A DNA stretch of 64,000 nucleotides, from positions 47,667,028 through 47,731,027 of the forward strand of contig OZ024936.1 of the NCBI GenBank assembly GCA_964017235.1, given 5' to 3'. Shown here piece by piece: positions 315-47,400 of this stretch; position 1 is the stretch's first letter; each line of letters starts with the position of its first letter. The stretch is from Sabellastarte sp. h YS-2021. Taxonomy: Eukaryota > Annelida > Polychaeta > Sabellida > Sabellidae. The notes beneath the pieces were generated by a model. It was not told where the DNA came from and searched no databases. It saw only the letters and a program-made list of their open reading frames with translations. The translations under genes and the position numbers were made by a program.

Positions 315-1349
315 CTAGACTTATGCCGCTCGCTTTATTGCGAGCCGGCGGTATATCCTCAAACATAGCAAACATGTAGAAGTAATAATAATAGACATAG
401 AGGCTGAAGATTCATGAAGTTATAAGCATTTTTAAGTTTGGCTGTCGTTTGACCTTGAAAGAGGGGTCCAAGGTCAAATCGGACCACATCAAAAGATTCC
501 CAACCCATGATTTCCTATAAATTGGTTTCACATTGCAAACCTCTTGGATCAATAATAAGCGAGTTATTAGCACTTTTAAATTTGGCTGTCCTCGTTTGAC
601 CTTGACGAGGGGCTCAAGGTCAAATTTGACCACATTAGGAGATTCCTAGCCCATGATTTCCTATATGTTGGTTTCATATTGCAAACCTCTAGGGCCAATA
701 ATAAGTGAGTTATAAGCACTTTAAGTTTTAGCTATCCACTTTGACCTAGAAGAAGGGGCCCAAGGTCAAATCTGACCACATCGGAAGATTCCTAGCCCCT
801 GATTTCCTATAGGTTGGTTTCACATTGCAAACCTGTAGGACCAATAATAAGTGAGTTATAAGCACTTTTAACTTTGGCTATCCTCATTTGACCTTGAAGG
901 AGGGGGCCAAGGTCAAATCGGACCACATCATAAGATTCCAAGCACATGATTTCCTATAAGTTGGTTTACCATCCCAAACTTCTAGGACCAATAATAAGCA
1001 AGTTATAAGCACTTTTAACTTTGGCTATCCTCATTTGACTTTGAAGAAGGGGCCAAAGGTCAAATCGGACCACATCAGAATACCAAAAATGAAACTGTGC
1101 CCTACGGCTTGAACACAAGCAATATTCAAAATTAATCAAAATTGTTGACATTTTTGACTCCCCAGAGCATAATTCTGACTCCTGGGCTACCAAAATAATT
1201 GGGTGGCCAGATCTCTGCCATAGCAAGCCACATGCAAAGTTTAAAAGAAATCCCAAAAGAAATGTAGCTTGTAGGTTGAACACAAGAAAATCTCTGCAGA
1301 CGCGGATGATGACCGTGCGTGATCCATAGTATCCCCGCTTTTCGGGGAT
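315..1349 (+). mobile_element. Array-bearing (HINE-like) element with 146-bp repeats
   Basis: It starts CTAGAC directly after AA and has a 5' hairpin (CGCTCGCTTTATTGCGAGCCG). A tandem array of about 4.5 diverged ~146-bp repeats (about 402-1080) follows; GTTATAAGCACTTTT recurs at 419, 563, 709, 855 and 1002. The 3' tail ends in a perfect hairpin TATCCCCGCTTTTCGGGGATA and then CAA before T. The end lies 27 bp from SNX17 exon 5. No coding sequence was recognised. Confidence 0.6.
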
Positions 1350-1376
1350 ACAATAAAATTGGTGAATAATCTGTAC

Positions 1377-4300
1377 CTCCAACACATCATCCGTTTGGTC
1401 TGTGGACTTAATGTTCACAGTGATCTTGTGACCATTCATCAAGAAGACATCCAAGCTCACATCCTCTGGAGTCTCCTTTTGACTGTGCTGTAATAATAAT
1501 ATACCAATTCTAAACCATGACCTCGAAGGAGCAGGGCAAGACAAATAGCTATGGTATTTACCAATATTTAATAATAGTTTAGAATAGCAATAAATGACTA
1601 TTAATAATATCAAATAATATAACATTATTATTGGTAAACCAAATTATTTCAATACCAAAGATTTACCAATAATATTTCAACCTATACTTGTTACTCAGAC
1701 AACAGGAGATATATCCATGGATAAAGTGTTCACATATTTCATAGATTTTTACTTTACAGAAAACTCCAAAGACAATTCAACTTATCCATATTATGCATAC
1801 AACTGTAGTACTGCCAAAATGTATTGCAACTGTTTATTTGACCCTTTAACAAAACTGTCTAATACTCTGAGAAATGTAACTTCTGTTTCTACTTATGCTA
1901 AGTTAATCCAGATTTCAGTAAGTACAATGTAATTCATTTAACTGCTTCACACAAGTAAATTAACAATTAAGAAGAGAAAAAGTCCATTCATACACAAATG
2001 ATATAGAATACCTGCTGCGCTTGCAAAAGGAAGTCATTGAACACAGGTGAGGTGGAGATTTGAGGGTTCTGACTAACTGAAATGACAAGAACAGAGTCTG
2101 TATTCACTAATATTCGTACACTAAAACAATTGAAATATTAGAAACATGCTTATCATATGAACTGGCAACTCACAGCAAAGTGTTTGGTACACTGAGTTTT
2201 GATTAAAACTGGCTCAATCCTAAGAAAATGAAATATTAATAATGTATGATAGCTTACTAATTGTGAAAATTCAACATAAACACAAATTATATTGCAAATT
2301 AATGACAAAAAAAATAAGGCCTTGATAGAGTGAAAGAGATTATTCTGATGAACTTGCATGAATTTAAGCTCCACAAACCAAGATTAATTCGCAAGTTTGA
2401 CACAAATATTCAACAATTTAAAGTAAAATAAAAGAATTTCCTGTAATATTTCACAAATTTCACATTTTGTACTCAACCATTCACCATACTTACTTAGCTG
2501 TACATATCTTTCTAAATGCCCTCTCCTTTCCTCCAATTGCACTGGACTTAAGGATAGTATCTTTTTGGGTGGGAAGGCTGGCAACCCTTGTGTGGCAAAT
2601 TCTCTTTTTAGCTGAAATGTTAACAGGTAAGTCAATCATCCATTATCATACAATTTGTTATTGACAATTTTATGTGGAATTACTAGTATAAAGTGTTCAG
2701 TCAATTTGATAAGAGCCTATTAAGAGGTTTTGCTTTTAATTTATCAGAAAAAGATTTATTATTCTAATTTTCATACTAAAATTTAGGTATTAATTGATCA
2801 CTTGTACTAAAATGTTGTTTAATGTCATTATATCCATACAAATGCTACTTGTTATGGCTTTAAGATACTTACTTGTTCATTGAAGCTATGAAACAGTTTG
2901 TATCTAACTGAGCAATGATAAACCCCATTGATATGAACATTGAACACCTGAAATGAAAAATTTGTTACATATAACATCAGTTAAACATTAAAAAGTCATT
3001 GATAACATTTCATCCACATAGTAACAGATGTGGCAATCTGTTTAACACCAATCATGTGCTTTGAAATATACAGCCACTGTGAGATACTAATTTATTTATT
3101 TAATCAGGTTTCACATCAGATTTGATATTGTTCAGGTATAATCATGAGTAGTAGTTTTAACTGCCAAAACTGCAATGGTAAAAAACACTGTATCATTATA
3201 AAGACAACTTGTGTTTGAATAGTTGCTTATTACTTCAAAAATAGCATAGTTCTATCAGTTCTTACAGGCAGAAAAATGAATACATGGTGTAACTATCACT
3301 ATGTTACATCCAGAAAAGTACCAATATGGCAGTTGCACAAAATAAATATATTTATATTAGCTTATGTTTGGCCCATTTAATTTAAGATTTCTTTTGATAG
3401 TAGAACTCTGTTACGTGGATTCCTGTAGAGTTGAAGTAAATAATGCAGGTTTCAAAATAACAGTTTCTACTGAAATGTAACTGTATTTCTAAAATGCCTT
3501 AATATATCTTTCTCACACATTTGATATTTGTCTTGAAAGGTCTTAAAATGTTCCAATATGTGACAAACTCACATATATTCTGCAATATACTTAAATAATG
3601 ATGTCAATAATCTGGAAACTCACACATTTAATAATAATTTCTCACAATTCAAAGAAAAACAGCTAACTTGGTATAGCACTTATTTCTATGTTGGATTACT
3701 TAATTCCTGATCTCTCACCCCTCATATATTTTGGAAAAGTAATCTTATACTGCTTTCATGATATCTCTTTTCTATGATTACAAAAAAGCAGAATTATATC
3801 CAATGTAGCATATATTTGGTGTTCTTGTCTAGTGTTGGGTTGTAGACTTCTTTGCTTTCATTATTTTTTTCCTACATTATCCCCATTTACATAAAAATTC
3901 TCATTTTCTATATGGCTGTGAAAATGTTCAGTTCTATTTGCTAAAATGCTTACTGTAAAGAAATGCCCATGAAGGCCATTTTGTTGTCAAGATTTCGTAA
4001 TGATAAAGATATTCTGTGAATTTGAGATCTCTACCTATAATACCGTTTGCTCTAGATGGCCAACAAAACTCCTTGCTGAAAGTCAAAAAATGCCGGTAGC
4101 GGCCATCATATTTTTTTCAAAATGAGGCCAAAAATATTCCCAGCAAGATTTTATGGTTATGAATATATCCTACATTATTTGAGAAGTCTACCTATAATAC
4201 CCTGGCCTGAGTGGCCTCTAGAGAGGTAACGACAAAATCTCTACACACTGTGGCGGCAGCATACTGATGCGTAATCCATAGGATGCTATCTGGTGGATAC

Positions 4301-7300
4301 AATAACTATTCATGTTCATTAACATTTTAAGAGGACATTATGAATCTTTTTGCAGAGTAGGATTTAAAATATATCTGCTTCAGTACACAAAAAGTAAAGA
4401 TAAACATTTCTTGAAGACAAAATGTTCTATGCTTATTAAAGCACGATAGCGAACAATGATATGTGTCAGACCAAATTAACATGACAGAAGAGAAGGAGCA
4501 ATATTTACATGGAGCGTGTTTATAATTGATAATGGAGGCAGAGGGAGGTTATATACACTGAGCAGTTGTGTGATCCATGGGTTAAATTTGCTCCATGACA
4601 AATCTGCTCCTCCTCTGACTGGATTTCCTCTGACCTTATTGAGACTGCAATATTGCAAGATTTTGAAATAGCCCTTTGCTTAAATTAAAATATTTATTTT
4701 ATGTAAATAATCCAAGATCAATGAATGAAACAATTACATTAAAACAAAGAAAGTGACTAAATTTCTGTCGCTCACATTTCTGTTGAGGTCAAACAAAATT
4801 AAGCCAAAGCAGGAGCAAAGTTTTGATGGAGCATATTTTGATACATGGACAATACAATGCTCCACTAGAATTTTTTAACTCCTGCTCCAACCTCCCCATG
4901 CCTTCTTTATTCAACTATAAAAAGGCTTCACGTATACAGTGTTCGCTCTCGTCAAAAATGAATGCGAGACAGACTGTCTCCCTTCACTTGAAAAGGCGAG
5001 ACAACTGTGAAAAAATGCGAGACATGTCTAACTTCAAGATATTTTGAAATATTTAGTTCCAATTTGGGACTGCATAAAATCTTCTTTATTTAAATAATAA
5101 GAAATAGATGCTAAACTAAAAGTTCAAATAAATAAACTATTTAATGCTGTTTTTATTAAATTTTGTCTTTTTTTAAAATTTCACTTCTAAACCAGTAAAC
5201 CACATCTTAATGGCTTATTGGCTGCATGGGTACGTGCTACTGTTTTTTTTATTATTATTCTTTATTTTTTTATTTTACTGTTATCTGGATTCTTGAAATA
5301 AATAAATAAATTGCATTTTTTTCTCTTTTCTTTGAAGAAATATATATATTGTCCCTTCCGATATTAGACGAATTTCTTTGGTCAGTAGTTGTTTCGACTG
5401 TTTCGCCTGTGACACAATATGCAGAAGACGAGTTAAAAATTAGACATAAAGCACGGAAATCTCGTGAGAATGCCCAAATTCTCACGTGAATTACTGTTAG
5501 TTGGATGTATCAAAAAAAATAAACTCACTTTCATGTCTTTCTCACCTATTTCTATGAGGAAATATGTACGTCGTCGCTTCCGATAACAGACAAATTTCTT
5601 TCGTCAATAGTTGTTTCCACTGTTTCGCCTGTGACACTATAAGCAGAAGACGAGTTTTAAAATCGACAAAAAAGCACGGAAATCTCGCGAGAATACAGGA
5701 AATCTCACGTGAATTACTGTTAGTTGGATATATAAAATAAAATAAACTGCTTTTCTCACCCGTTTCTATGAGGAAATATGTACGTTGTCGCTTCCGATAA
5801 TAGACAAATTTCTTCAGTCAGTTTCGAGTGTTTCGCCTGGTAGCGACAGCACAGACGCGTTGGTGAGTTCGTTTTGCGACAACTCGCCCCAGAGTGTGTA
5901 CAAAAATCGCGCTCGAGAGCGAACACTGCGTATATATTGCTCCTTCTCAAACCCTTGTCTGTCATTTTGGTGCCCTGACTGTCAACAATGTTGCTTCAAC
6001 AAATATGGTAGTATATGTTGTCCACAGACAGTGTTTATATCTTTCGCTAATAAAAGACAATATAGATCAAACCTGACAGAAAATCAAAACATTCATATTG
6101 TCCTCTAAAATAGTTGTTAACAAGAAGAGATTTTAAAAACCCTTGTTACATGTATACTAACTTTACTATTACTGTTGCATAGATCAATGAATACTTTATT
6201 ATTAACTTAGCTCAATCAGATTGCCGTGTCGAATGAATAAAAGCATTTTGTAATTTGAAAAATATGTGATTGCAAAAAACTTGTGACATGTAGTAAAATA
6301 TGCTACTTCAGCATGTCCAGTTAAACAAAATAATGCCCTATCTGTAATATAAGTTATTAATACACCATTTGTGGTAGCAAAAGTTTTCCATATAGTCAAC
6401 GCTTAATTGAAGGGCATTATAATTACATAATAATGCGCACAACATGCACTTTTGAAATTGTATAGGCCTATTAATGTAGGATCTTCTAGATCAACATTGC
6501 ATTTCAATTTTTGTTGTATTACTGTAGACAAACGTTTCTAATTGGTGGCATCATGGCTTCACTTAACCTTACCCGCACAACTCAAAAAGTCAATTTTCCC
6601 CAACTTTCTAAAGATTTTCCCAAATTGACCGGACTTTTTCCCTGACCTTTAATTTCCCTGATCACTGGCAACCCTGGGTTAAGAGGATTTTCATTAATTT
6701 TAAAAATCATTATTCTAGAAAATAATGATTCTTTATTCCGCAGAAGAATAATAAAAGACTTGTAAAAGAAAATTCTTGTTCATAATTACCGAAGTGGACA
6801 TTGTGACTGCATTGAAGTCGGAGAAAAAATAGAGCGGAGTCTCAGCTTGGAGAACGGAGTTTTGTAGGTAGGCAACTGCTACCCGATGGAACAGAAACTC
6901 GGTCTGGGTCTAAATTAGACCGAGTTTCTGTCCCGTCACCAATCGCTTTTGATATGTTGATGGATACAATGGCAAGGGATAGAGCTCACATTTGTACCTG
7001 TTTTCTGTGTAAATTTTGAACGGCATATTTGTACACATATTACCACAAGTATAAAGTGTTCTTTGCATTCTTTAAGGTATATGTATATGTGCCGTTCACT
7101 AATATTTCATGCCAATCAAACTGGCTTGTATATATTTGAACCTGTTTTTATAAATGTAAACAAACCTTCGATGTTACAAAGTTATCTACAAAAAAAGTTC
7201 CTGGTTTGCAAAAGCAGTTTAGTTTAACAATATATGTATTGCAAACTGGATACAAGTATATAGACATAAAAAGGACTTTTAAAAGTGACTGCAATGATTT

Positions 7301-10300
7301 TTCACAGTTCGAGATTTACACAGAAAACAGGTACATGTGAACTCTGTCCCTCGGCATTGTGTCCATCAGTATATCAACTAGAGGATCGCTCGCAAAAAAA
7401 AAGATAATGTTTTTGCATAGCAAAAACAAAGCGTCCCGAAAAGGATATAAAGGTGAGTGCTAAAGTATTAAGAAAATGCTTCGTTTCTAGCCTTATACTG
7501 TTGTGGCAACCAAAGTCAGCGCAGTCTGCTCTATCTAGCACGGTTTTCAAGATATAAGCATTTTTGTGTTTTGCAAAAAAGTAAAAAAATTAAAAATGTC
7601 CGCTATATTTGGCGAGACAAAAATATTTTGAAAATTGGCATGGCTACTCTGCAGAGATACCCAGCAGGTCCAAAATTTTGTTGAGTTCGCTCCATATAGC
7701 ACGGTTTTCGAGATATAAGCATTTTTGTGTTTTGCAAAAACTTTGAAAATTCAAAATGGCCACCATTTTTGGGGAGACAAAAATTTTTGTCAAGACCACT
7801 GCCGCGGTGTGTATCTCCCGCCGAGCATTAAAGCAGAAGAAATAGCTTTTCCGAGATATTCACAATTTTTCATTTTCGTGTGTGAAAGCTCTCCCAAAAG
7901 TAGGTGAATGAGTTATTTCAGAAAAATTGGCTATCTGCAATACTATTAAGAGATAATTCACCTTTACTCATTTTCAGTAGGTGAATAATTATCTGTGGGT
8001 CTGAAACTTCACCAAGTGAAAGCTCTCCCAAAAGTAGGTGAATGAGTTATTTGAGAAAAATTGGCTATCTGCAATACTTTTAGAGATCATTCGCATTTAC
8101 TCATTTTGAGTAGGTGAGTAATTAGCTATGGGTCTGAAACTTCACAGAGTGAAAGCTCTCCCACAAGTAGATGAATGAGTATTTGATAAAAATTGGGTAT
8201 CCGCAATACTTTTACAGATAATTAGCATTTACTCATTTTGAGTAGGTGAATAAATAGCTATGGGTCTGAAACTTCACAGAGTGAAAGCTCTCCCAAAAGT
8301 AGGTGAATGAGTTATTTGAGAAAAATTGGCTATCTGCAATACTTTTAGAGATAATTCGCATTTACTCATTTTGAGTAGGTGAGTAATTAGCTATGGGTCT
8401 GAAACTTCACCAAGTGAAAGCTCTCCCAAAAGTAGGTGAATGAGTTATTTGAGAAAAATTGGCTATCTGCAATACTTTTAGAGATAATTCGCATTTACTC
8501 ATTTTGAGTAGGTGAGTAATTAGCTATGGGTCTGAAACTTCACCAAGTGAAAGCTCTCCCAAAAGTAGGTGAATGATTAATTTGAGAAAAATTGGCTATC
8601 TGCAATACTTTTAGAGATAATTCGCATTTACTCATTTTGAGTAGGTGAGTAATTAGCTATGGGTCTGAAACTTCACCAAGTGAAAGCTCTCCCAAAAGTA
8701 GGTGAATGATTAATTTGAGAAAAATTGGCTATCTGCAATACGTTTAGAGATAATTCGCATTTACTCATTTTGAGTAGGTGAGTAATTAGCTATGGGTCTG
8801 AAACTTCACCAAGTGAAAGCTCTCCCAAAAGTAGGTGAATGAGTTATTTGAGAAAAATTGGCTATCTGCAATACTTTTAGAGATAATTCGCATTTACTCA
8901 TTTTGAGTAGGTGAGTAATTAGCTATGGGTCTGAAACTTCACCAAGTGAAAGCTCTCCCAAAAGTAGGTGAATGATTAATTTGAGAAAAATTGGCTATCT
9001 GCAATACTTTTAGAGATAATTCGCATTTACTCATTTTGAGTAGGTGAGTAATTAGCTATGGATCTGAAACTTCACCAAGTGAAAGCTGTCCCAAAAGTAG
9101 GTGAATGAGTTATTTGAGAAAAATTGGCTATCTGCAATACTTTTAGAGATAATTCGCATTTACTCATTTTCAGTAGGTGAGTAATTAGCTATGGGTCTGA
9201 AACTTCACCAAGTGAAAGCTCTGCCAAAAGTAGGTGAATGAGTTATTTGAGAAAAATTGGCTATCTGCAATACTTTTACAGATAATTCGCATTTACTCAT
9301 TTTGAGTAGGTGAGTAATTAGCTATGGGTCTGAAACTTCACCAAGTGAAAGCTCTCCCAAAAGTAGGTGAATGATTAATTTGAGAAAAATTGGCTATCTG
9401 CAATACTTTTAGAGATAATTCGCATTTACTCATTTTGAGTAGGTGAGTAATTAGCTATGGGTCTGAAACTTCACCATGTGAAAGCTCTCCCAAAAGTAGG
9501 TGAATGATTAATTTGACAAAAATTGGCTATCTGCAATACTTTTAGAGATAATTCGCATTTACTCATTTTGAGTAGGTGAGTAATTAGCTATGGGTCTGAA
9601 ACTTCACCAAGTGAAAGCTCTCCCAAAAGTAGGTGAATGAGTTATTTGAGAAAAATTGGCTATCTGCAATACTTTTAGAGATAATTCGCATTTACTCATT
9701 TTGAGTAGGTGAGTAATTAGCTATGGGTCTGAAACTTCACCGAGTGAAACCTCTCCCAAAAGTAGGTGAATGAGTTATTTGAGAAAAATTGGCTATCTGC
9801 AATACTTTTAGAGATAATTCGCATTTACTCATTTTGAGTAGGTGAGTAATTAGCTATGGGTCTGAAACTTCACCATGTGAAAGCTCTCCCACAAGTAGAT
9901 GAATGAGCTATTTGATAAAAATTGGGTATCCGCAATACTTTTACAGATAATTAGCATTTACTCATTTTGAGTAGGTAAGTAATTAGCTATGGGTCTGAAA
10001 CTTCACCATGTGAAAGCTCTCCCAAAAGTAGGTGAATGAGTTATTTGAGAAAAATGGGCTATCTGCAATACTTTTAGAGATAATTCGCATTTACTCATTT
10101 TGAGTAGGTGAGTAATTAGCTATGGGTCTGAAACTTCACCATGTGAAAGCTATTCCAAAAGTAGGTGAATGAGTTATTTGAGAAAAATTGGCTATCTGCA
10201 ATACTTTTAAGAGATAATTCGCATTTACTCATTTTGAGTAGGTGAGTAATCATCTACGGGTCTGAAACTTCACCATGTGAAAGCTCTCCCCAAAGTACAT

Positions 10301-13300
10301 GAATGAGTTATTTGATAAAAATTGGGTATCCGCAATAGTTTTTGAGATAATTAGCATTTACTCATTTTGAGTAGGTGAGTAATTAGCTACGGGTCTGAAA
10401 CTTCACCAAGTGAAAGCTCTTCCAAAAGTAGGTGAATGAGTTATTTGAGAAAAATTGGCCATCTGCAATACTTTTAGAGGTAATTCGCATTTACTCTTTT
10501 TGAGTAGGTGAGCAATTAGCTATGGGTCTGAAACTTCACCAAGTGAAAGCTCTTTGGGATAGCTGCTCTGCAGAGATACCCTGAAGATAAAAAATTTTGT
10601 CGAAATCACTCTATGTAGCACGGTTTTCGAAATATCAGCATTTTTGTGTTTTGCAATTTTTGCGCAAAAATTTGAAAATTCAAAATGGCCGCCATTTTTG
10701 GCAAGACAAATTTTTTTTGAAAATTGGCATGGCTACTCTGCAGAGATACCCTGTGGGTCTAAAATTTCGTCAAAATCGCTCTATCTAGCACGGTTTTCGA
10801 GATATAAGCATTTTTGTGTTTTGCAATTTTGCGAAAAATTCGAAAATTCAAAATGGCTGCCATTTTTTGCGAGAAATTTTTGGTTTGAAAATTGGCATGG
10901 CTACTCTGCAGAGAAACCCTGTGGGTCAAAAATTTCGTCGAAATCGCTCTATCTAGCAGGGTTTTCGAGATATAAGCATTTTTATGTTTTGCAATTTTTG
11001 CGAAAAATTCGAAAATTCAAAATGGCCGCCATTTTTGGCGAGACAAAATTTTTTTGAAAATTGGGATAGCTACTCTGCAGAGATACCCTGTGGGTCAAAA
11101 ATTTCGTCGAAATCGCTCTATCTAGCATGGTTTTCGAGATATAAGCATTTTTGTGTTTTCCTTATTTGGAAAATTCGTAATGATTAATTAATCATTAATT
11201 ACTCGGCCATTTCTTGACCAATCAATGCCAAAATCTAATGATTTCCAGATTTTAATGGAATGAATGTATTTGCCAAGTTTCAGGTGAATTGATAAAATTC
11301 CTTTCAAGTTATCATCCGGACAAGCTTCCCCATCGAAAAAAGACATTTTTGGTCATGTGACCTCTCTGATTGGTTGAAATGTCACTGCAGCATATTCAAA
11401 AAATTTCCCCAAGGCTACTGCCTAAACCTGCCAAATTTGAAAAGAATCCGCCTAACGGTTACAGAGTTATAAGGAAAACAAAATGCGGAGCCGGCGGAGC
11501 CTGAAGCTCTCCCATACACAAACAAGCGTCCCTTGCGGGATGCTTAATAAGCCTTATTGGAGTTCCGTTCGTGGAAAACGTATGTGGATAAACAAACTAC
11601 GTAGATTCAAACCAGGAAGTGATTTTTATGAAATAAAAAATGCAAAATAATGTACTTTTTGTTACATAACAGCCATCACACTTAATTTATTTTTAAAATA
11701 TACACAAAGATGTACGAAACTGTGATTTTTCAATGTGAAAATATATTTAAAAGTATTGTTTTAAGTCTTCTAAGGTGGGCGAAAATAAGGGTTTTTGGAA
11801 ATGCATCAAGCTATATTTTGACTCAATTTTTTTATTTCTTAAAAAAATTATCTACCCCCTTAAAAGGAAAATACTGTATTTGTGGTACTTTTTATTTAAA
11901 CATAATCATAAGGTGTTGACAAATAAATTTTGAAAGTATTTAAAATGCTAGAAAATAGATGTTGAAAAACGATTTTTCACAAGAAAATAACATTCATAAT
12001 TATACTGAAGTAAAATATAATATTAATAGAATTTTGCATACATTTCATTTCATTGTAGTTTTAGTTTACCTTTTATTCAAGGAAATTAGCTTTGTAGTTG
12101 ATAAGAAATGTTATTGTTTGGAACACCTGTGGCATATAACCACTAGACACTAACTAGACACTAACTCATGCATATTCAAACACTAGACACTAACTCATGC
12201 ATATTCACGACTTAATACTATAAATTTAATACTATAACACCAAATCAAATATAAAAATATACCGTAAAACTTTTAAAAACAACTTCACCTATGATATCAC
12301 TATCATGACCTTTACTTTTTCAAATTCATAAAGTAATGAACAATATTCTGGATATTACCATCCAGAGTATCATTAAAATCTATTAATCTAATCCCCTCTT
12401 CATTTTTAAATATTTTTAGCCCAAGATATATATACATATAAAAAGCTGACATATTATTTTGTTTTTCATTTTAAATATAAGTCACATGAAAGTTATTAAG
12501 AGAAAGTTAAAATGTTAATTTTGTTTTGTGAAGGATATTGAAATTTTGAAGTATGTCTGTGGTGTTTTTGTGTCATTGGAGTTTTCATACATAGTTTTTT
12601 CTATGGGTTTCCACGTAAATTATATTGTAATATTGTAAATTTTTATTGTGACTAATATTCCCTTTTATTTATAATTGACGTATTAGTGAAAATAATACTG
12701 AAAATCGAGTTTACAGATGATTGGTGGTTGGCACATTTATTTTCATGTAATAAATGTATGCATAAACTTAAAGAAATTTATGTTTTTGTTGTTATCCCAT
12801 GACACCATGGCTTTGTGATATATATTAATGTACTTAAAGTTATATTTTTATGAAAATATTTATAAAAATTTAAGTCCAGGGCACCTGCAAATGGCTTCAT
12901 TAGTAAATGACATCAAAACTCCACAGTAACGGTTTTGGATTGTCCTTTGTTTTCAAAATCTTTTGGGCCTCAAAATATGAATTAAAATTTAAGAAAAGAA
13001 ATTCTGTCAGGTTGGATACAATAAAATACAAATACAAAATTACATTCACTAAATACAAATTTCCATGCACTAAAAATAATTCAGATTGAAAGGTTATTTG
13101 TTGTAGTGTTTACTGCCAGTGGACATTTTAATAGCATTAAGACTCTGTGGTTCAGCATACTTCAAATTTTCAGTGATAAATTCACTACAAAACCATAAAA
13201 ACACAACAGGAATTTAAATTCTGTGTACTTTATGCTTCAAAACGATGTACAATATCTTAAAATGAAGGAAAAAATTATTTTTTATATGTTTTAACCAGGT

Positions 13301-13806: not shown

Positions 13807-14000
13807 TTTCTGTGGAATCAATTTATTTGTACTTAGTCCAATATTGTATGTCAGTACATAGTTATTTCATAAATTCCTCCCATTTTTAAGCACCATTTTT
13901 TTTTCGTGATCATGTGATCATGTAATTGTTCCGGGATACATGCTAAAAGGGAGAGGCAGACTGTTAACTGTACGGTAAAATCCGGAAATGTACACAGCAT
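13807..14000 (-). promoter_or_regulatory. Probable SNX17 5'UTR/promoter region
   Basis: This is the DNA directly upstream of the SNX17 start codon. It contains a doubled TGATCATG (13907-13922) that forms TCATGTGA, an M-box-like E-box of the kind bound by MiT/TFE factors. It also has a CCGGAA ETS-type core near 13982. No TATA box is convincing. The assignment rests on position; the motifs are short and could occur by chance. Confidence 0.3.
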
Positions 14001-16342: not shown

Positions 16343-16346
16343 TTAA

Positions 16347-18815: not shown

Positions 18816-19219
18816 TTAATCCTTATTGTATCCTTTATAAACAATTTCTCATATAATATTATAATATTCAAGATTTCATTGTGCCATTCCCCTCCAGTAT
18901 TAATTTTAAATGTCTCCTAATAAGTTCACAGGTAAAACAGTACATGAATAACTTTAAATAAATATGTACAGAGTCATTCTTCAGCAAAATTTTCATCAGT
19001 GGCAGTTCAAGCACTTGTCATTATGGCAAACTCCATTATCAAATATTTGCAAACACAATACAATTAAAGTCACCATTGTAACATTTAGATAAAGTCAGAG
19101 TACTGTTATTGATGAGACTTTCACAGCCTTTATCTATGGGTGTTCTCACCATAGGGTATTCAAATACAACTATTTTACATCCTGTAAATACACAACTTCT
19201 TTACATCCACAATTTGGTC

Positions 19220-23339: not shown

Positions 23340-24965
23340 AGGTTAGATATCTCCGACGTTGGGCCAAGATATAGCCCAGACAAGATTTTATTGGTCAAGA
23401 TCACTACAGCAAGCTCAAATCAAGGTCATACCATGACATTGCACACCTACAACCCCTGAGAAATGTCCCTACCAAGTATCAACTTAGTACACTTTACGAT
23501 TTCAGAGATATTGCCCAGACAAAATTTTAAAGGTCATGGCCACTAGGAAAAGATCAAAATTCAAATCAAGGTCACACTTTGACAATGCATGCCGTCAACC
23601 CCCAACCAATATCCCTACCAAGTATTAACTTCCTACACCTTACAGTTTTCAAGATATAGCCCAGACAATACTTCATAGGTCAAGGTAACTAGGGCAAGGT
23701 CAAAGTCACACCTGGACATTGCAAACCTACAACCCCTAAGCAGTGTCCCTACCAAGTATCGATGTCCTACACCTTACGCTTGCCAAGATATAGCCCAGAC
23801 AAGATTTTATAGGTCATGGTCACTATGGCAAGGTCAAATTAAGCTCACACCATGATGTTGCACACCTACAACCCCTAACCAGTATCCCTATCAAGTATCA
23901 ACTTCCCACACCTTACCATTTCTGAGATACAGCTCAGACAAGTTTTTATAGGTCGAGGTCACAACTTCAGGGTCAAAGGTCAAATCAGGGTCACATCATG
24001 ACGTTGCACACCTGCAACCCCCAACCAATGTCCCTGCCAAGTATCAACTTCCTACACCTTACGCTTGCCAAAATATATAGTCCAGGCAAGATTTTATAAG
24101 TCAAGGTTACTACAGCAAGGTCAGATTTGAGATCAAGGTCATACCATGATTTTGTACATCTAACACCCCCAAACAATGTCCTCCCAAGTATCAACTTCCT
24201 ACACCTTACGGTTTCCGAGACATAGCCCGGACAAGATGTTATAGGTCAAGGTCACTATGGCAAAGTCAAAGGTCAAATCAAGGTCACACCATGATGTTGC
24301 ACACCTACAACCCCAACCAATATCCCTACCAAGTATCAACTTCTACACCTTATGGTTTCCGAGATATAGCACGGACAAGATTTTGTAGGTCAAGGTCATT
24401 ATGGCAAGGTCAAATCAAAGTCACACTATGATGTTGCAAACCTACAACCCCCAATCATTGTCCCTACCAAGTATCAACTTCGTACACCTTATGGTTTCCG
24501 AGATATAGCACGGACAAGATTTTATAGGTCAAGGTCACTATGGTAAGGTCATATCAAGGTCACATCATGACATTGCCACCTACAACCACTAACTAATGTC
24601 CCTACCAAGTTTTAACTTCCTACAACTTACAGTTACCGAGATATAGCCCAGACAAGATTTTAAAACTCAAGGTCACTGAGGCAAGGCCAAAGGTCAAAAC
24701 AAGGTCACATCATACTGTTGCTCACCTACAACCCGTAACTCATGTCCCTACCAAGTATCAAGTTCCTACACCTTACAGTTGCCGAGATATAGCCCAGACA
24801 AGATTTTCAAACTCAAGGTCACCGAGGCAAGGTCAATGGTCACATCAAGGTCACACCATGACATTGCACCTACACCGAACCAATGCCCCTACCAAACATC
24901 AACTTCCTACACCTTACAGTTTCTGAGATACAGCCTGGACAAACTTTTTCCCATAAATTTTAATG
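23340..24965 (+). repeat. GGTCA-rich tandem satellite, 134-147-bp unit, about 11 copies
   Basis: Diverged units carry TACCAAGTATCAACTTCCTA, GAGATATAGCCCGGACAAG and ATAGGTCAAGGTCAC. The ACCAAGTAT block recurs at 23471, 23617, 23751, 23890, 24036 and onward. The same family occurs at 41170-42050 and, inverted, at 57115-57485. It ends abruptly near 24965. Confidence 0.88.
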
Positions 24966-26223: not shown

Positions 26224-26356
26224 TAACACAAAAACCCAATATTATAACCATAACATAAATCCTTTTAGAACTTACATAGCATTTTATCGAATAAAATACG
26301 ACACCCCTACTGTGTTAACTACTGCTTTCTAAGTACATGAGATTCTGAGTCATGAA

Positions 26357-32400: not shown

Positions 32401-35400
32401 AAATACATGCAAATTATTTCTGTACATGAGTGAAAATATCAAGCCCTGTGAAATCATTGCTGTCTTGCTGTACTTAATTAAGTACATCGCAGAAAATTTA
32501 CTAAAACTATTCTGCAGATACTATATGTTACATTACAGCATAAAATTAACACTATAAAGGGAAACAGGGTGGCTTCTGGTTTGGTGAATATACATATCTG
32601 GTGTGTTTATGCCAATGCATCTTTTTAACTAAACAAATGCACAAAATATGTGTAGATTTGCCATGTTAATGACATTAAACATAAAAGACAACACCTAAAT
32701 CTTTAGTAAACTATAGCATCTGACATAATTGCTAAAACTTTACCTTTGCTAATCCAATGGCATCCAGTAGATAAGTGACTGTGTAGGTCTGAATTTTGTC
32801 TGACATTTCCTCAATGTATAGGTTCAGATAGACACCACAGACACCACTTAGAATGCAGCTCACATAGAAGCTGTTTAAAGAACATTTGAAGAATTACCAT
32901 AGGACATGTAAAAATATATTTCCTTCTTTATAGAATTACCAAAAAGAATAAAAATCACCTTTGTTATACAATTCTTTTTCCCTATGTGAATCATATGAAC
33001 ACCTGTACTTATTGCACTACTTATGGTAATACTAGTGGGTAAATTGTTTATCAATATTCATGATATTTATTGTTTTGGGACAGGGTTGCCAATATTGATG
33101 TCTAAAGAAGTACTATATCAATATTGCAATTTTAAGTAAAACTGTAAACTTACACTGCAAATATTTGAAATTAAGCCTACACCTGAAGAAATTGTGTACA
33201 CTATACCTTGTGATTTTGTAGTTTTCAGTTTATATTTTCAATCAAAATTGCTATTGTTTTGTTTTGATACATTTGGCTTCCTGTTAGTGGTTAAGGATAT
33301 GCTAGAATAAAGCGTTTTCGGTATCCCAAATTCGGACATTTTGGTAGACAATATCACCATCCCCCGTCCCCCTTGTTATAGGCCGATATTGAAATATTTT
33401 TACTTTCAATATCGATATGCACACATCCAATCAATTTACCCACTAACTGATACCCTTTTAACAACTTGGGTTACCAATACTACAGGCATCTAGTGTTTAC
33501 TAGACCACAACAGAGTTTAAAGGTCATCTACTGAACACGGTATCCAAAGTAGGCTATTTAAGGATCATATACTGATAAGGGGAGTATCCCACAGAAGCTG
33601 TAAGCACAAGCACAAGAATTTTAGCATGGCGTACAAAAACTGGTCTTAATACAGAACGATGTACTAATTCCCTCAAATATGTTTTTTTTAATATGACCTA
33701 TAAAATAGGGGCAAAATTTCACAATAATTATTGCCAAATGGCCCATATTTCAGTTTTGTTGAGAGCGTCAAACTCTACACATGGGTAACTTTGTTCAATG
33801 GTAAAAGATTGTTAGCTATTCTCAGATGAAGTTCGGGGTGTACCAAATTTCTTCTGTGCTAATGAAATTGAAGGAATAGTTGTATATATTTACCTGTAAT
33901 AGTACCAGAATTCAAAATCTACGGCTGACACTGCATCACCTGAAAATAACCGCAGTACAATTGATTATAACATTTAACAGTCATGTTTTTGCCGTCATAC
34001 ATTCATCATATGTATTTATATTAGTTTTAAAAAAGTTTAAATTGTTGTTTGTCTTCACTGAATTATTGTTTTTTTTTGTGTACAACTAGTAACAGTAATC
34101 ATAGTCAAATCATAGTCTGATATATTTGGTCTAATGCACTTAAAGTTAATTATTTTCCAAGTCAAAAATATAAACATGCATATAGCCTTGTAAGAAATTA
34201 TTGCCAGGTTTGCTAGTAACAGTTTATCTCTGAAAATCAGCAACAATTAGATACAAACTGTGTGTGTAAATGTGAGCAGGCAATATCAAATGAAAATAAT
34301 AAACTAATGTACAACATACCTAAGAACAACGTGGATGGCAAGAGAAGCACTACACTAAATACATAACACAGGTACAGTCGGCAATTTTCACTGAAAAAAA
34401 ACAACAATCATATAGAGGAGTTCATATTTTGCTAAAACTTGCAAATAAACTACTTTGTCTCAGTCAAGATTCACTCCTCAATGACCCCCCTTTATTTTAA
34501 ATTCTGGGAAATTCTGCAAGGCCTCATAATGTAACCTTGGGTAAATTCCTTAGTATAACCTAGGCCTTGATTTACACACAGAAATCAAGCTCAAGTTTGG
34601 CCAAACGTTAACTCAAGTTAAGTTATCCATGAATAAGGAATAAGTTTGTTTTCACAAAGAAGTTGAGTTAATTTTTGACTGAAGATTAGGATTAACTTTT
34701 TTGATACTGACTGAAGGCAAACATTAGCCAAGTCATTTTTTGTAATCTGTTTTGTCTTGTTCTATTTAAGTCAGCTTAATCTTTCTTTGTGAATTATGAC
34801 CCAGGGTTAGATTCTGAGGCCACCACATAGTTACCACCTCCACTAAGAATCTACCCACTTATTCTATTTTCTTTTATTAGCAAAATGCACAAATTCCCCC
34901 ACTAAAATTTTAATAAACTGTGATCTTACTCAGAAAATACAAAGTTACAAAATGATGTACAACAACAAACTAAAAACTCTTTTGATTTGCGTACACACAG
35001 ATACAAATCTAAGTACAAATACTGGACATGCAAACTGAGAAACGAGAATGTTGAGCTGTTGTCACTATAAATGTTCATCTGCATAAAACATATCCATGTA
35101 TGTAATGAAATGAAACTAGAGGATCGCTTGCAAAAAAAAAGATAATGTTTTTGCATAGCAAAAACAAAGCGTCCCGAAAAGGATATAAAGGTGAGTGCTA
35201 AAGTATTAAGAAAATGCTCCGTTTCTAGCCTTATACTGTTGTGGCAACCAAAGTCAGCGCAGTCTGCTCTATCTAGCACGGTTTTCAAGATATAAGCATT
35301 TTTGTGTTTTGCAATTTTTGCAAAAAATTCAAAATGTCCGCTATATTTGGCGAGACAAAAATATTTTGAAAATTGGCATCGCTACTCTGCAGAGATATCC

Positions 35401-38400
35401 AGCAGGTAAAAAATTTTGTTGAATTCGCTCCATCTAGCACGGTTTTCGAGATGTAAGCATTTTTGTGTTTTGCAAAAACTTCGAAAATTCAAAATTGCCA
35501 CCATTTTTGGTGAGACAAAAATTTTTGAAAACAATACCACTGCTGCGGTGTGTATCTCCCGCCAAGCATTAAAGGAGAAGAAATAGCTTTTCCGAGATAT
35601 TCACAATTTTTCATTTTCGTGTGTGAAAGCTCTTCCAAACGTAGGTGAATGAGTTAGTTGAGAAAAATTGGGTATCTGTAATACTTTTACAGATAATTCG
35701 CATTTACTCATTTTGAATAGGTGAGTAATTAGCTATGGGTCTGAAACTTTACCAAGTGAAAGTTCTCCCAAAAGTAGATGAATGAGTTATTTGATAAAAA
35801 TTGGGTATCCGCAATACTTTTAGAGACAATTAGCATTTACTCATTTTGAGTAGGTGAATAATTAGCTATGGGTCTGAAACTTCACAAAGTGAAAGCTCTC
35901 CCAAAAGTAGGTGAGTGAGTTATTTGAGAAAAATTGGCTATCTGCAATACTTTTAGAGATGATTCGCATTTACTCATTTTGAGTAGGTGAGTAATTAGCT
36001 ATGGGTCTGAAACTTGACCATGTAAAAGCTCTTCCATTAGTAGGTGAATTAGTTATTTGATAAAAATTGGCTATCTGCAATACTTTTAGAGATAATTCGC
36101 ATTTACTCATTTTGAGTAGGTGAGTAATTACCAACGGGTCTGAAACTTCACCATCTGAAAGCTCTCCCAAAAGTAGATGAATGAGTTATTTGATAAAAAT
36201 TGGGTATCCGCAATGCTTTTACAGATAATTAGCATTTACTCATTTTGAGTAGGTGAATAATTAGCTACAGGTCTGAAACTTCACCAAGTGAAGGCTCTCC
36301 CAAAAGTAGATGAATGAGTTATTTGAGAAAAACTGGGTATCCGCAATACTTTTAGAGATTATTTGCATTTACTCATTTTGAGTAGGTGAGTAATTAGCTA
36401 TGGGTCTGAAACTTCATCATGTGAAAGCTCTTCCAAAAGTAGGTGAATGAATTATTTGAGAAAAATTGGCTATCTGGAATACTTTTAAGAGATAATTCGC
36501 CATCTAGCACAGTTTTCGAGATATTAGCATTTTTGTGTTTTGCAATTTTTGCGTAAAATACGAAAATTCCAAATGGCCGCCATTTTTGGCGAGACAAAAT
36601 TTCTTTGAAAATTAGCATGGCTACTCTGTAGGGATACCCTAATCTGTAGGGATACCCTGTGGGTCAAAAATTTCGTTGAAAACGCTCTATCTAGCACGGT
36701 TTTCGAGATATAAACATTTTTATGTTTTGCAATTTTTGCGAAAAATTCAAAAATTCAAAATGGCCGCCATTTTTGGCGAGACAAATTTTTTTTCAAAATT
36801 GGGACAGCTACACTGCAAAGGTACCCTGTGGGTCAAAAATTCTGTCGAAATCGCTCCATCTAGCACGGTTTTCGAGATATAAGCATTTTTGTGTTTTCCT
36901 TATTTGGAAAATTCATAATGATTAATTACTCGGCCATTTCTTAACCAATCAATGCCAAAATCTAATGATTTCCAGATTTTAATAGAATGAATGTATTTGC
37001 CAAGTTTCAGGCGAATTGATAAAATCCCTTTCAAGTTATCATCCGGACAAGCTTCCCCATCGAAAAAAGACATTTTTGGTCATGTGACCTCTCTGATTGG
37101 TTGAAATGTCACTGCAGCATATTCAAAAAAATTCCCCAAGGCTAGTGCATAAACCTGCTAAATTTGAAAAGAATCCGCGTAACGCTTACAGAGTTATAAG
37201 GAAAACAAAATGCGGAGCCAGCGGAGCCTGAAGGTCTCCCATACACAAACAAGCGTCCCTTGCGGGATGCTTAATGACTACTTCCGTAATAAGAATTACA
37301 CTTTAAAATTGCATTGGCATCACTCTGACCCAAATCTTTCTGTGTCCACATTACAGGAATTTATTAAATGATTACGATCTCATTGGTTTCAGAAGACATG
37401 CCCATGGTTTACAGCATTACAAGTTATAACGCAAGTTTCCTGCACAACTGACTGATTGACCGATTAATTTTGCGCAGATTGTCTTAGTATATGCTTGACC
37501 TTTAGACACATAAAACAGAATTCAGTGTCATGGTTATAAGAAAAAATAGTCTATGGAGATAGAACCTCTGGACATATATTTCTGATTTTTATTAGTTTAA
37601 GTCCAACACTTCACCACAGATTTTGAAGAGATTTGCCAAAGAGGTGAAAAAAATAGAATGATGAGCTGACTTTATATATTTTTAACATTGATTTTCTTGT
37701 AGTGAAAATCTACTTGATTTATTTATTTAATGTTGCCTAGTATCTTGTTTCAAGTTATACTGTCATGGGAGTACCATTTAAGTGACTAGGTTTCTGCCCA
37801 TACCTGGACCAGAACTCAGAAAGTCACCCATCCATGTACCAACCCAAGCCCAGTGCTGTCCAAATATTGTCACACAGATTCCTAAACAATGTCAACCTAC
37901 TAATAACCTGAAGGAATGAAAATGAAGCTTGTTTATATATTAAAAATGAATGCATCGATTTCTGTATAATTAAACTGATTTTTTATTTAATAAGAATTCT
38001 ACACATACCCCAATGGTGGAATGGAATGACTGAGCTTTGGAAAAATGACTAGAAAAGTAGAACACGCAACATGTAAAGACATCCAACTGTACTGCACTCG
38101 ACTTCTCTGAAAAAAAAATACAAACCCTGTCACATAAAACTCTGACAAATATATTTCATTTTGTGAATAATAAGCTTGGTTATGAGAAGCATTCTCTGGC
38201 CCTTTGAGATTCAACTTTATAGGGTTTAACTCTGGTAATAGTTCATCACTGTGTGGACATTATACAGAACTATAGTCCGAATGGCAGTTTAGTACCACCA
38301 TGACATTAATCTACTCTTAAATGACTTCAATTTATGTTGGCAATACTTGGGTAAACTATTTTATTGAGTTTAATCCAAAGACCAATCAGTTTCACTGACT

Positions 38401-41400: not shown

Positions 41401-44400
41401 CCTTATGGTTTCCAAATTTAAACCTAGACAAGATTTTATAGGTCAAGGTAACTACAGCAAGGTCAAAGGTCAAATCAAGGTCATGCCATGACGTTGCACA
41501 CCTACACCCCCTAACCAATGTCCCTACCACGTATCAACTTCCTACACCGTACGGTTACATCTTATGGTTGCCGAGATATAGCCTGGACAAGATTTTATAG
41601 ATCAAGGTCACTACAGCAAGGTTAAAGGTCAAATCAAGGTCATGCCATGACATTGCACACCTACACCCCCTAACCAATGTCCCTACCACGTATCAACTTC
41701 CTACATCTTATGGTTGCCGAGATATAGCCTGGACAAGATTTTATAGATCAAGGTCACTACAGCAAGGTCAAAGGTCAAATCAAGGTCACACAATGACCTT
41801 GCACACCTACACCCCCTAACCAATGTCCCTATATCAACCTCCTACACCTTACGGTTTCTGAAATATACCCCAAACAAGATTTTATAGGTCAAGGTCACTA
41901 CGGAAAGGGCAAAGGCCAAATTACGGTCACACCATGACCTTGCACACCTACACCCCTAACCAATGTCCCTACCAAGTATCAACTTCCTACACCTTACGGT
42001 TTCCGAGATACAGGCCGGACAAACTTCTTCCCGCCAGGCCTGCTCACCCATCCGAACACCATGGGTAAAAACAATACCCTGACGGTAAGGGCTGTAGGGT
42101 AAAAATGATATAATGTATTACTATTTTGATTAAAGTTGGTATTTATAAGAGCATTTTACAAAATAATGGGGATTTTAAATGTTTTTAAATATTTCCTAAA
42201 ATTCATCCCAATTATAGCAGTGATTTTTGATGTGTGCAATTTTAAAGCCAGCACTATAATCACTTATTTCTTAACTTTTGAAATAAGTGTGAATTGTAAT
42301 GCTTCATGGTTATTCTAGTTTAGTAGAAATACAATGCTTTGACATCCAAATCATGATGGATGGGTTGGGACATCAGATGCAGAGGGTATATTACCTTTAA
42401 CTTGATTTTGTTTCTAATCTGTTGTTCAATTTTTTTCTGCTTTATTTTTGTTCCAATTCTGACCTGTGCTTTATCCGCGTATAAAGTGTACTCTATGTGT
42501 GTATCAATAAATTCTGGCATCTGAACATTAAGAATGAAAAGATAAAATAAAACAAACCAATCAAACTGAAGATCCAACTTAATGATACATTCAACTGGAT
42601 AGCTGACACTACAGATACTTTTACTTACTTTATTGCTAAAGATTGTCCTGTCCAAGATCAGATGAAACACTGAAGTCACATTGTGAAGACTCATGAATAT
42701 TGCAACAGGCTAAAAATTAAGCAAGAAAAAGCAGCATATAAAATGGAGGATGATAAACTTATTTAACAATCAACAGAAATCATGAATGATCTTACACAAG
42801 TTATTACATACAAGAAGCTTCAAATGTCAGCTCTGAGAGACAAAAATAAATAGTTCAATCAATGAATGAATCAATCAAATACAGTTTTGGAAACATTCAT
42901 GTTTGGAGTTTAATTATCATGAATATAGCTTTAACTAGAAAAAGATTTTTGCTGACAAAAAACAAAGCAGCGCTGATGAAAAAGTGCGAAGTCATCCGTA
43001 AAAGATGTCAACATATGCATCATAAGCAATAGAAACTGTGAACTTTATTGCATTGTATATGTTACTTGTCCCTATTTTCATCTTTAATAAGTGTGCAAAA
43101 TTAAACTGAGGTCAGCTGAACAATACAATAGCAGGAGATTAAAAACTCCATAATTTCACAGCAAGGTGGCCATAACTTCATTCATATTGGGACTTTAAGG
43201 TGACCATAAAATAAGAATATCCCTTTTCTCATCCTTTATAAGTGCATAAATGTTAGCTCATGTCAGTTGAACAATAAGATAGCTGGAGGCTGAAAGTTCC
43301 TTTTTCACTGTAAGGTCACCATAACTTCATTCATATTGTGACTTTAAGGTGAGCATAAAATACAAATGTCCCTTTTTTCATCCTTTATAAGTGCATAAAG
43401 TTTAAGCTCAGGTCAGTCGAACAATAAGATAGCTGGAGGCTGAAATTTCCTTTTTACACTGTAAGGTGACCATAACTTCATACGTCTTTTGACTCTAAGG
43501 TGACCATAATATGAGAATGTCCCTTCAATATCAATATATGTTAGATATGGAAAAAGAAAAGGGCCAGATGACTTTATTCAAATATAATGACTTTAGGGGG
43601 GCCATAACACCAATTATATTATTAAAGGTCACCATAAAGTCAGGATAACCCTTTGGTTTTCCATCCATTATAGGTGTGCAAAGTTTAAGTGAGGTCAGTT
43701 GAACAATAAGATACTTGGAGGCTGAAAACCCCCTTATTTCACTTTAAGGTGGCTACAACTGCATTCATATTGAGAGTTAAAGGTGACCATAGGTATTATT
43801 TTTATCTAGTTTAATACCAGTGATAATTAAGATAAAAAAAAATAGAAAAAGAAAGGAGCCAGAGGATATTATTCCATTTTGATGACTTTAAGCAGGCCAT
43901 AGGTCCATTAACATTTTGAGTTTAAGGTCACCATAAAGTCAGGATATTCCTTTGGCAAATGTGAATATATGTGCCAAGTTTAGTTGAAAAAAGTGAAAAA
44001 CTAAGTGAACTGGAGGGCTAATAACCCCTTTTTGACATTAAGGTGACCTTAAGATTGCAGATACAGGGCTAAAACTTCAGCATGTGAAAGATTATCCAAA
44101 AGTAGCTGAATAAGTTATTCCAACGAAACGCTGAAATCCTGTCCGTTTTTGAGATACAGACCAAGTACCCATTTATAGGCATCTATGGTCCGATTGATGA
44201 GAAAATCCTTTCTGACCTTCGAAATTTGGTCTAGAATGTACTTGGTCAATTTTATAGCACAGGTGTTTGTAGTTTTTTCCGAAATGCAATGACGGGGTGT
44301 TTTTGAAAAAAGCTTAAGGTTACCTAAGTAAAGCTTAAGGTCTCCTGAAAGTACCCCCAAAATTTTTCCCACCCCTATAGTTTAAAAGAAAGATAAGAAG

Positions 44401-47400
44401 GAAAGAAAAATTTGAATTTGAAAGCCCAAGAAGTTATTCAAGGGAGACCATAATCCTGCGGCGGCGATCAGTCGAACTTCGGTGAAAACAAATAAGATAT
44501 TGTAGAAATAATCCATGAGTGATCATGGTTTTACACGGCATTTAACCATGGCACTTTCGGTAATAATTTTACGAAGCCGACATTTAAGCTTATTTAAGAG
44601 GTTTTTTTCATTTTTAAAATTTTTTACAAGAAATAAATTGTTTTACGTAGCTTTGTTTACATTGTGGGGACCTTAGCAACCAGCTGTTCCATCCATTGTA
44701 CCTGGAAACCGCAGATTTAAAAATTTCCTGATACAGGAATATTTAATATGAATATAATTTATAATATTTATTATTCAATTAATATTTAATATTCAATCAA
44801 ATATAAATAAAAACAATACAGCAACATTACCAACTCGTTTCTGCGCAGATCGTCATGTTAGAATGATTGATTATTAATTAATTGATTTGCATTAGTTTGG
44901 ATTATTTTATACAGTTTTCAGAGGTAATAGAAACAATACTCACCAAGTGTGACAATGCCACAGATCCTGAATAAATATTTACCACAAACACAAGGAAGTA
45001 AGGCACCCACATGAACAAGGATTTGCTAAAATTAAAATTAGGACTGCAGTATTAATGTCTTTGCACTGCAGTACCTATTTGCCATTATTATACCATTGTA
45101 TGTGTACACTTTTAATCATAAAATACCTACTGTTACAGACCACTTGAAGCATATGAGTTTATTGTACTTTAATCATAACTAAAGTACTCCTAACAAGGAA
45201 AATTACAGTTATTCAAATCTTCTGAAAAAGAATGTACAGACGACCTATAGTTATAATTCCTTTTTGAAGATTTGTAATAGAGGTTTATAATTCCAAGAAA
45301 TAATCAATACTTTAAAATCAAAAACTTCTGAAACAACGTAATTCAACCAAAAGAAACAAAGAATTATTTTATGCAGGTCCAGGTCAAGTACATGGAACCA
45401 AGTACAAGTACTTTGCCAAGCTGCAAGTATTGTTGTCAAGTCTCAAGTACAAGTACTTTGATAAATGGCAAGTACAAGCACTTTTGATACTGTATTTATA
45501 TGGTAATATGTTAGTATTATAGTAAAAGCAGATCATCAAAAACTTGATATTTATTATGATATACAGTTTAAAACAAATAATCAATGAACACTCCAGAACT
45601 CTGCTTAAATTTTCTGGTTACACTCAACGAACATCAGTTTTTCAAAGTTTTTGTCTGTGATGGTACACCGATCAGGATAGAAAACCTTTCCTGCTTCACT
45701 GAAAAGTCTTTCCACGGGTGCATAGGAAGCTGGGACTGCCAAGTACTGTTTGACTATCTTTGCCAAATTTTCATACTCTTGTATTCATTTGTCTTCCAAT
45801 ATCACAACACATCTGTACTCTTGGGAAGCACTAGCTCACTGATGTATTTGTCAACCTCAGCATCAGTTGTGGTCTGAGTGGTATTATCTGGGGAATCCAT
45901 GAAGCCGAACAGGACAAGTGCGTAGGCAGTTCAATGTTGAACTGTTCTTCACATTTGATTTCTTCCTTGTTCACTCTGTCTGGTTGCAAACTCCTATCTT
46001 CAATTCCTCAACCATAACATTTCTGCATATGGTTTGTTTTCATCAGTTTTAGTTTGAACCTTGGTGATTTTTCCCAAGGCAACCTTTAGAATTTCAATTA
46101 TTTTCAGAAGAAAATCTGACTCTCACCTGCTTAATCTACTGAACTCTATATGTAAATTCTTTATCTTGAAAAGAAGTGACATCAAAATAAGGCCAAATAG
46201 AGTTTGCCATCTATAAATACAAGAGAAATTTGAAAGCAAGGATCAGATTAAATAATAACTGAAACAAACAGTTCATAGATTACATAATAGCAAGAGCATT
46301 TAAAACTTGGTGCAAATAACCAATTAATTCTAAATTTCTAATGACATTTTGACATCCTATCTCCACATTGAATATACACAACTAGTTGTTGATTCAATTC
46401 TAAATCATTTAGTTAATTTAGTTCCTCTCTCATTTTGGCTAAACCAATACTACTGTGAATGTCAACTGTAACTTGGAGGTAAAAAAGTATGACCACTGTC
46501 TACAGAGAATTATGCGAATAACAAATTAACAGTCACAATTATAACATTTTCACAAAACTCTATTATAATTTAACCTTATAATACTGTAACATACAACATT
46601 TTACTTACCCTTGAAAAATTGTAGGATATTGAAATTTCAACACTGACAGCACATACTGTAAATTATATAAAATACCGTAAATTTCCACAATAACACCCAG
46701 GTTCAAATAAACGTCTGGTACTAAGCACACTCTTTATAATTAATGCTGTTAATGTTAATAATGTTCTTTTTTTATTTCAAAAGAATGCCCGGTATTTAAG
46801 TTAGACAACAACATGTAAATATTTAACTTTTAGGTTCAACAACAACATGCAAAAAAGTCCACAAATTTTATCTTTTAAGAATAATCTTTCATTTAACACC
46901 ATATTTGAGGCTTATCATAATTATTTTATTGCTTCATTTGAGATTAAAGATTAATGTTGAGATGCCCAATTGAAATTTATATGTACGCCAATATTCACAA
47001 ACATTATCAATTTTAGAATAAAAGCTTGTTTCTCACTCAGAAAATATTCTTAGAATAAGAAAAAACAACAAGATTTTTTTTTTTTTTGCTATTGCACCCA
47101 AACTATCGGTATATGAGCAAATCGCCGACAAGATAACTTGCAGACATCAACTCGCTGACAGATTTTAAGTAAATCAATGACAATTTACCGTAAATTTCCA
47201 AAATAACGCCCAAGTTCAAATAAACGCCTGGTTCCAACTTGAGAAGTTTCATTGTATTTTCTAATTAGAGCCTTTTGTGGCAATATTTCAGTGTTACAAA
47301 AGCTGTATATGTCATTTTTATAAGTAAATAAAACTGCACTAAATAATCTGTCGGCGAGTTGCCATCGGTGAGTTGGCTTGTCGGCGACTTGCAGGTAATT

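Follow-up and report, generated by a model that had tools for sequence, protein, structure and literature searches.

Satellite-carrying elements with CTAG 3' ends at A|TT sites in Sabellastarte sp., probable HINE-kind rolling-circle transposons with mixed Helitron/Helentron ends

What kind of element carries tandem satellites of quite different monomers between similar short termini is the question raised by the window, by which we mean the whole stretch of 64,000 nucleotides analysed here, a part of contig C14 in a 1.79-Gb assembly. The preliminary description had placed CTAGA directly after AA at 315, 7378, 27385, 35116 and 42935, and all five are present in the sequence. It had drawn CTAGA as the start of the elements. 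Since AA|CTAGA is a CTAG 3' end standing before a TT target, that start is the 3' end in the rolling-circle convention, and the drawing has to be reversed, with the elements read on the minus strand. Read in this way, they are very probably non-autonomous rolling-circle transposons of the HINE (Helentron-associated) kind, with mixed Helitron/Helentron ("proto-Helentron") ends. The features are as follows, with arrays delimited by Tandem Repeats Finder.

1..286, minus strand: element cut off by the window edge, 5' part only; TTAAGCATCCC end at 286
315..1353, minus strand: family A, complete element (146-bp satellite); 3' CTAG at 315-318, 5' TTGTATCCCC hairpin ending at 1353
418..1080, minus strand: family A core, 146-bp tandem array, 4.5 copies
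4169..4302, minus strand: probable 5' end of another element; begins TTGTATCC, hairpin imperfect
7378..11547, minus strand: family B, complete element (133-bp then 169-bp satellite); 3' CTAG at 7378, 5' TTAAGCATCCC hairpin at 11547
7882..11159, minus strand: family B core, 133-bp array (20.1 copies) followed by a 169-bp array (3.6 copies)
27385..32141, minus strand: family C, complete element (169-bp satellite); 3' CTAG at 27385, 5' TTATGTCCACC hairpin at 32141
27603..31710, minus strand: family C core, 169-bp array, 24.4 copies
35116..37274, minus strand: family B, second complete copy; both ends common with the 7378 element
42935..44486, minus strand: family D, satellite of about 151 bp; 3' CTAG at 42935, no 5' hairpin, body stopping at about 44486

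The five CTAG ends of the preliminary description are real. They represent four families instead of five, because the elements at 7378 and 35116 have both ends in common, and family D has no 5' hairpin. The hairpin ends before T given in that description hold at 11547, 32141, 37274 and 286, while the end given as 1349 lies at 1353 and that given as 4309 lies at 4302, where the hairpin is imperfect. Arrays of 146 bp, 133 plus 169 bp and 169 bp were as described, and the monomer of about 150 bp is given here as about 151 bp. In the family B element at 7378 the 133-bp array occupies 7882-10553 and is followed by 169-bp monomers up to 11159. The core of the 35116 element is also a 133-bp array (35623-36500), and that of family D is a 151-bp array at 43067-43525. 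No genes were seen within the CTAG elements. The tail ending at 286 and the remaining 5' part of family D share three short stretches in the same order (19-41 bp, 78-89% identity). For the element ending at 4302, a 3' end was not located, and its alignment with family A is limited to 17 bp.

On the minus strand, each complete element opens with TT right after A, followed by a hairpin, and closes with a palindrome and then CTAG immediately before TT. The arms of the 5' hairpins in the complete elements are TTGTATCCCCG..CGGGGATAC, TTAAGCATCCC..GGGACGCTT and TTATGTCCACCCCCC..GGGGGGTGGA. When seven 5' ends were tested for the complementary 8-mer that forms the hairpin, six had it with at most one mismatch, among them families A, B, C and a related copy on contig C11 described below, and the tail at 286 had it with two. 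The 3' palindrome is present in families A, B and C by inspection. In family A it reads GCCGGCTCGC..GCGAGCGGC and is followed by 10 bases ending in CTAG, the arrangement of Helitron1, in which CTRR has a palindrome about 11 bp upstream; in family B it is set further inside from the 3' end.

We then asked how well the 5' arm recurs as a subterminal inverted repeat (subTIR). The first 11-mers of a 5' end were reverse-complemented and matched to the final 130 bases of the 3' end, and the match was judged against 2000 shuffles. The C11 copy has an exact subTIR 26 bp from its end, which no shuffle equalled (0/2000). Family C has one with a single mismatch 76 bp from the end, and so does the family A copy L044 at 37 bp; in each case 4 of 2000 shuffles were as good. 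In family B the match had two mismatches 50 bp from the end, with 59 and 46 of 2000 shuffles as good. The tail at 286 set against the 42935 end, two ends that come from different copies, also gave two mismatches (56/2000). The window's own family A copy had three mismatches and was at chance level, 549 of 2000 shuffles being as good. Three cases thus show a clear subTIR signature, and in the others it is weak or missing. In HINEs the 3' subTIR lies about 38-60 bp from the 3' terminus. The terminal design is A|TT-(subTIR + IR hairpin)-satellite array-(subTIR, palindrome)-CTAG|TT, and, as the preliminary description had it, one such design is common to several families with different satellite cores.

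These ends bear directly on the strongest alternative, in which the elements are canonical Helitrons (Helitron1) with a CTAG 3' end and the usual hairpin, and the 5' hairpin is incidental. The CTAG end, the palindrome before it, the insertion between A and T and the lack of a clear duplication, the last two documented below, would all fit this reading. The 5' ends of the window, however, read TTGT, TTAA and TTAT, not the TC of canonical Helitrons. Moreover, a complementary 8-mer follows the 5' ends, and in three cases its arm is found again close to the 3' end, well beyond the level of the shuffles; such a hairpin and recurring arm are Helitron2/Helentron features and argue against Helitron1. 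We regard the Helitron1 reading as unlikely. The end features of proto-Helentrons, namely a 5' TT, a 3' CTAG and insertion between A and T, were all found.

A different reading is that the satellite arrays spread by recombination or as circles, and that the common ends are hitchhiking repeats. It gains from the fact that arrays account for a large share of the elements and differ in length, and from the frequency of the terminal motif: the window has 11 copies of AACTAGA where 10.94 are expected, so that the motif by itself is no evidence, and we discarded it as a stand-alone argument. The pattern AACTAGAAACTAGA gave no information either. What speaks against satellite dispersal is the behaviour of the copies elsewhere in the genome, since homology among the scored copies, which come from many contigs, ends at the same termini. 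At the 27385 end, all 39 other rows among the best 40 of 258 candidates begin 4-25 bp before CTAG. At the 42935 end, the starts of 39 of 39 other rows (best 40 of 1934) range from 15 bp before the first base of CTAG to 2 bp after it. Rows stop 1-9 bp after the 37274 end in 39/39 other rows (best 40 of 1439 candidates), and 3-16 bp after the 32141 end in all 39 full rows of the best 40 of 335, one partial row being left out. Each of these sets is the best 40 by score for its query, a selection that favours chance matches in the flank; read-through of the 59-60 bp query flank was seen in none of the scored rows at the four ends. At these four ends, the scored genome copies lose homology at the boundaries of the preliminary description.

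The sequence next to the ends was scored in two ways. With the family A hairpin end, 30 score-ranked loci were collected from the genome, and A stands before TTG in 29 of them. In nine of the 30 the match extends across the entire 3' end, with lengths of 1040-1555 bp; TT follows the 3' end in 9/9, and the end itself reads CTAG in eight and CCAG in one. Two further loci, L046 and L064, match to 14 bp before the end, where L064 continues to TTAG|TT and L046 has no recognisable CTAG end. In the remaining 19 of the 30, a 3'-end match was not found within the stretch of DNA examined. The second approach was a mismatch-tolerant scan over the collected loci and the window, in which an end was scored only if it had not been used for retrieval. 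For 3' ends, TT came next in 21 of 22 distinct matches, five of the 21 being sites of the preliminary description; only L056, a poorly matching end with CTAC, departs from this. This count leaves out the end-retrieved family B ends, a second listing of L055, the L039 listing of the window copy and position 1505 of L001, the last because the locus was retrieved by a pattern containing that end, and it includes L070 and L076, one duplicated site, twice. For 5' ends, A preceded 14 of 15 distinct matches, four of the 14 already described; L025 follows T, and L035, preceded by A, starts with CT. Nine matches read from the inner side of the hairpin and the query-chosen family A ends were left out here. 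By inspection, and outside the scan count, the ends at 286 and 4302 are also preceded by A. The insertion site is A|TT rather than T|T. HINEs as first defined favour TT targets, and this counts against the HINE reading, as do the weak or missing subTIRs of family B, of the 286/42935 comparison and of the window's family A copy, the loci L046 and L064, and the 5' matches L025 and L035.

Evidence for a precise insertion came from an element of about 4.06 kb with related ends at C11:69204161-69208216, located inside a Helentron-like gene. Its junctions are CCAAAA|CTAGATTGGG on the left and GGGGATATAA|TAAACAATG on the right. The uninterrupted sequence CCAAAATAAACAATG is present at loci of C2, C3 and C4 with 100% identity, and at one more locus of C3 with 93%. 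The C11 copy sits between A and T, and no target sequence was lost. The AA (TT) at the junction may either belong to the element end or represent a duplication of 2 bp, and there is no other duplication; apart from this ambiguous dinucleotide, a target-site duplication is absent at the one complete empty site, as in HINEs. This clean site already contradicts satellite dispersal. It is the sole full empty site with identical flanks, and it belongs to a related family outside the window. Joined flanks were spanned in three other comparisons, L068 against L013, L052 against L014, and L058 against repeats of the 321-bp type; with 67-82% identity these matches do not fix the breakpoint. In the window, an inverted repeat at 6870-7378 flanks the 7378 element, and homology of its arm stops exactly at AA|CTAG. 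The right flank of that element did not align to the inverted arm, so this is half an empty site only.

The cores were compared among the same family A loci. At least four matches to the 146-bp monomer were present in 19 of the 30, and other loci carried arrays related to the 133-bp, about 155-bp, 146/159-bp (41397-type) or 169-bp repeats; L043, L047 and L050 had no match to the window monomers. Different satellite cores behind one 5'-end type are thus shown. All listed monomer matches in the family A loci have one orientation relative to the 5' end, which again speaks against satellite dispersal and leaves that reading very improbable. The 169-bp monomers of families B and C, one monomer taken from each, are 80% identical while the termini differ, and the 133-bp monomer has 74% identity with a segment of the 321-bp repeat (61958-63382). 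In at least three loci (L048, L049 and L053) a second element lies inside the 146-bp sequence of the first, with insertion points TTATTA|TT in L048 and L049 and CTTA|TT in L053. These observations support core exchange or shared descent, partly through nesting. With one 5'-end type standing before several satellites, the entry and exit of satellites can be tested by comparing copies.

Several further repeats were observed. The nested elements of L048 and L049 occupy the same monomer position, possibly a preferred target. At 61958-64000 of the window, a 321-bp array (4.4 copies) is directly followed by a 133-bp array whose orientation is opposite to that of the 7882 and 35623 arrays; the pair may be another element leaving the window. 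Related 146/159-bp arrays at 23367-24942 and 41248-42022 have no hairpin or CTAG ends at their edges by inspection. A 24-bp perfect inverted repeat with a 3-base loop lies at 53875-53925.

A cut-and-paste transposase moving MITE-like or foldback elements would account for terminal hairpins and short inverted repeats, but the inverted repeats are subterminal and asymmetric, there is no duplication beyond the ambiguous dinucleotide and CTAG stands at one end only, so that this reading is hardly tenable.

If the elements are HINE-kind transposons, a Rep/helicase made elsewhere would nick at the 5' TT and peel off one strand. Peeling would stop at the 3' palindrome and CTAG, and the product would be joined at an A|T site. 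Array length would change by slippage or unequal recombination, and cores would be swapped when elements nest or recombine. Where would the Rep/helicase come from? HINEs share their ends with an autonomous Helentron that encodes Rep, helicase and endonuclease, and the preliminary description had asked for an autonomous Rep/helicase relative with the same ends. Helitron_like_N gave 24 matches in the genome, and the 24 Rep-bearing loci, screened for CTAGTT with a palindrome of at least 7 bp in the preceding 45 bases, included none. The screened loci are about 3.2-3.6 kb each and hence mostly partial elements. Two of them, L070 and L076, lie on different contigs, are 99% identical and share one nested family D end. 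This 3' end lies about 1.3 kb from Rep, yet the element points away from Rep; because of this orientation, and because the loci are 99% copies of each other, we take it as a nested insertion and not as the partner. L073, with a family A-like 5' end downstream of Rep, was judged independent, and the homology edges of L081/L082, L078/L083 and L088/L089 are unlike transposon ends.

Among the Rep-bearing loci, identity is about 99% between L074, L075 and L077, and a part of L072 reaches the same level. The 2245-aa frame of L075 matches Helitron_like_N (91 bits) and DUF6570 (53 bits); at the end of this frame Exo_endo_phos scores 18.6 bits, short of the curated cut-off of 24.5. The 3' part of this Helentron-like family (L094, 300-1160) was compared with the genome, and among the best 40 of 3890 candidates the 39 other rows, on many contigs, have 97-100% identity; 38 of these 39 reach CTTG and then T, and seven of the 39 start near one internal point, as deletion derivatives would. 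Such similarity suggests recent activity of this CTTG|T family. Its CTTG|T 3' terminus has no recognisable similarity to the ends in the window. That different satellites are picked up and spread, as had been proposed, is plausible. A single machinery behind this is putative, an autonomous element with these ends not having been found among the loci examined, and this negative result also counts against the HINE reading. More tentatively, the CTAG lineage might be served by an unseen autonomous element of the proto-Helentron type, which would carry a Helentron-type Rep/helicase and no endonuclease, and this lineage, not the recently active, endonuclease-bearing Helentron of the same genome, might be the main disperser and exchanger of the satellites (146, 133/160, 151 and 169 bp), its members nesting at A|TT in each other's arrays.

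The exact ends can be used for genome-wide annotation, and a clean empty site is supplied with them. Among published systems, Cg_HINE of the Pacific oyster is the closest in architecture, and the likeness to bivalve HINE/pearl elements seen in the preliminary description is borne out. As far as the available part of that report goes, Cg_HINE is likewise non-autonomous, with a 5' subTIR plus complementary IR and a 3' subTIR plus palindrome, and carries a satellite-like array in its centre, the monomers mostly measuring 140-180 bp and two arrays in a row occurring in some elements (PMC7492417). Related flanks with unrelated cores, a fixed array orientation and an autonomous partner that was not identified are further points in common, while the reported insertion preference is TT and CTAG is absent from the text; a 5' microsatellite is typical there (PMC7492417). 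Bivalve pearl elements, likened here by their arrays alone, have short arrays of about 160-bp monomers (cited in PMC7492417, available in part). CTAG is also absent from two other texts (PMC8268682 and PMC11136912).

The termini are closest to those of the oyster Helitron/Helentron mixed elements, which, in the available part of their description, share the CTAG 3' end with a palindrome and insertion between A and T in 86%, with subTIRs in 257/751 and a 5' IR in 33% of those (PMC7992393). They begin with TC, whereas the elements here begin with TT, and the accessible text mentions satellite cores only through the Cg_HINE work and calls the mixed elements possible evolutionary intermediates (PMC7992393). 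The proto-Helentron of Phytophthora infestans, so far as its report is available, has the same 5' TT, 3' CTAG and A|T insertion without target duplication, but it is autonomous, about 14 kb long and encodes Rep/helicase, and the available part describes no satellite array (PMC4067079). Helitron2-type elements of Fusarium share the 5' hairpin and an arm recurring 38-51 bp before the 3' end, and differ in their ends (TCAG...ATTTT or TGCCT...CTCCTGT) and target, according to the accessible part of their description (PMC5148889). Because the oyster papers already report CTAG ends, A|T insertion, subTIRs and exchangeable cores, the kind of element is already known, and AA|CTAGA ends with interchangeable cores do not make the undescribed subfamily that had been suggested, being contained in the available parts of both reports (PMC7992393, PMC7492417). 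The particular families described here may be new, as judged from the literature search made here. The range of HINEs that carry satellites, end in CTAG and insert at A|T is thereby extended from oysters to another large genome.
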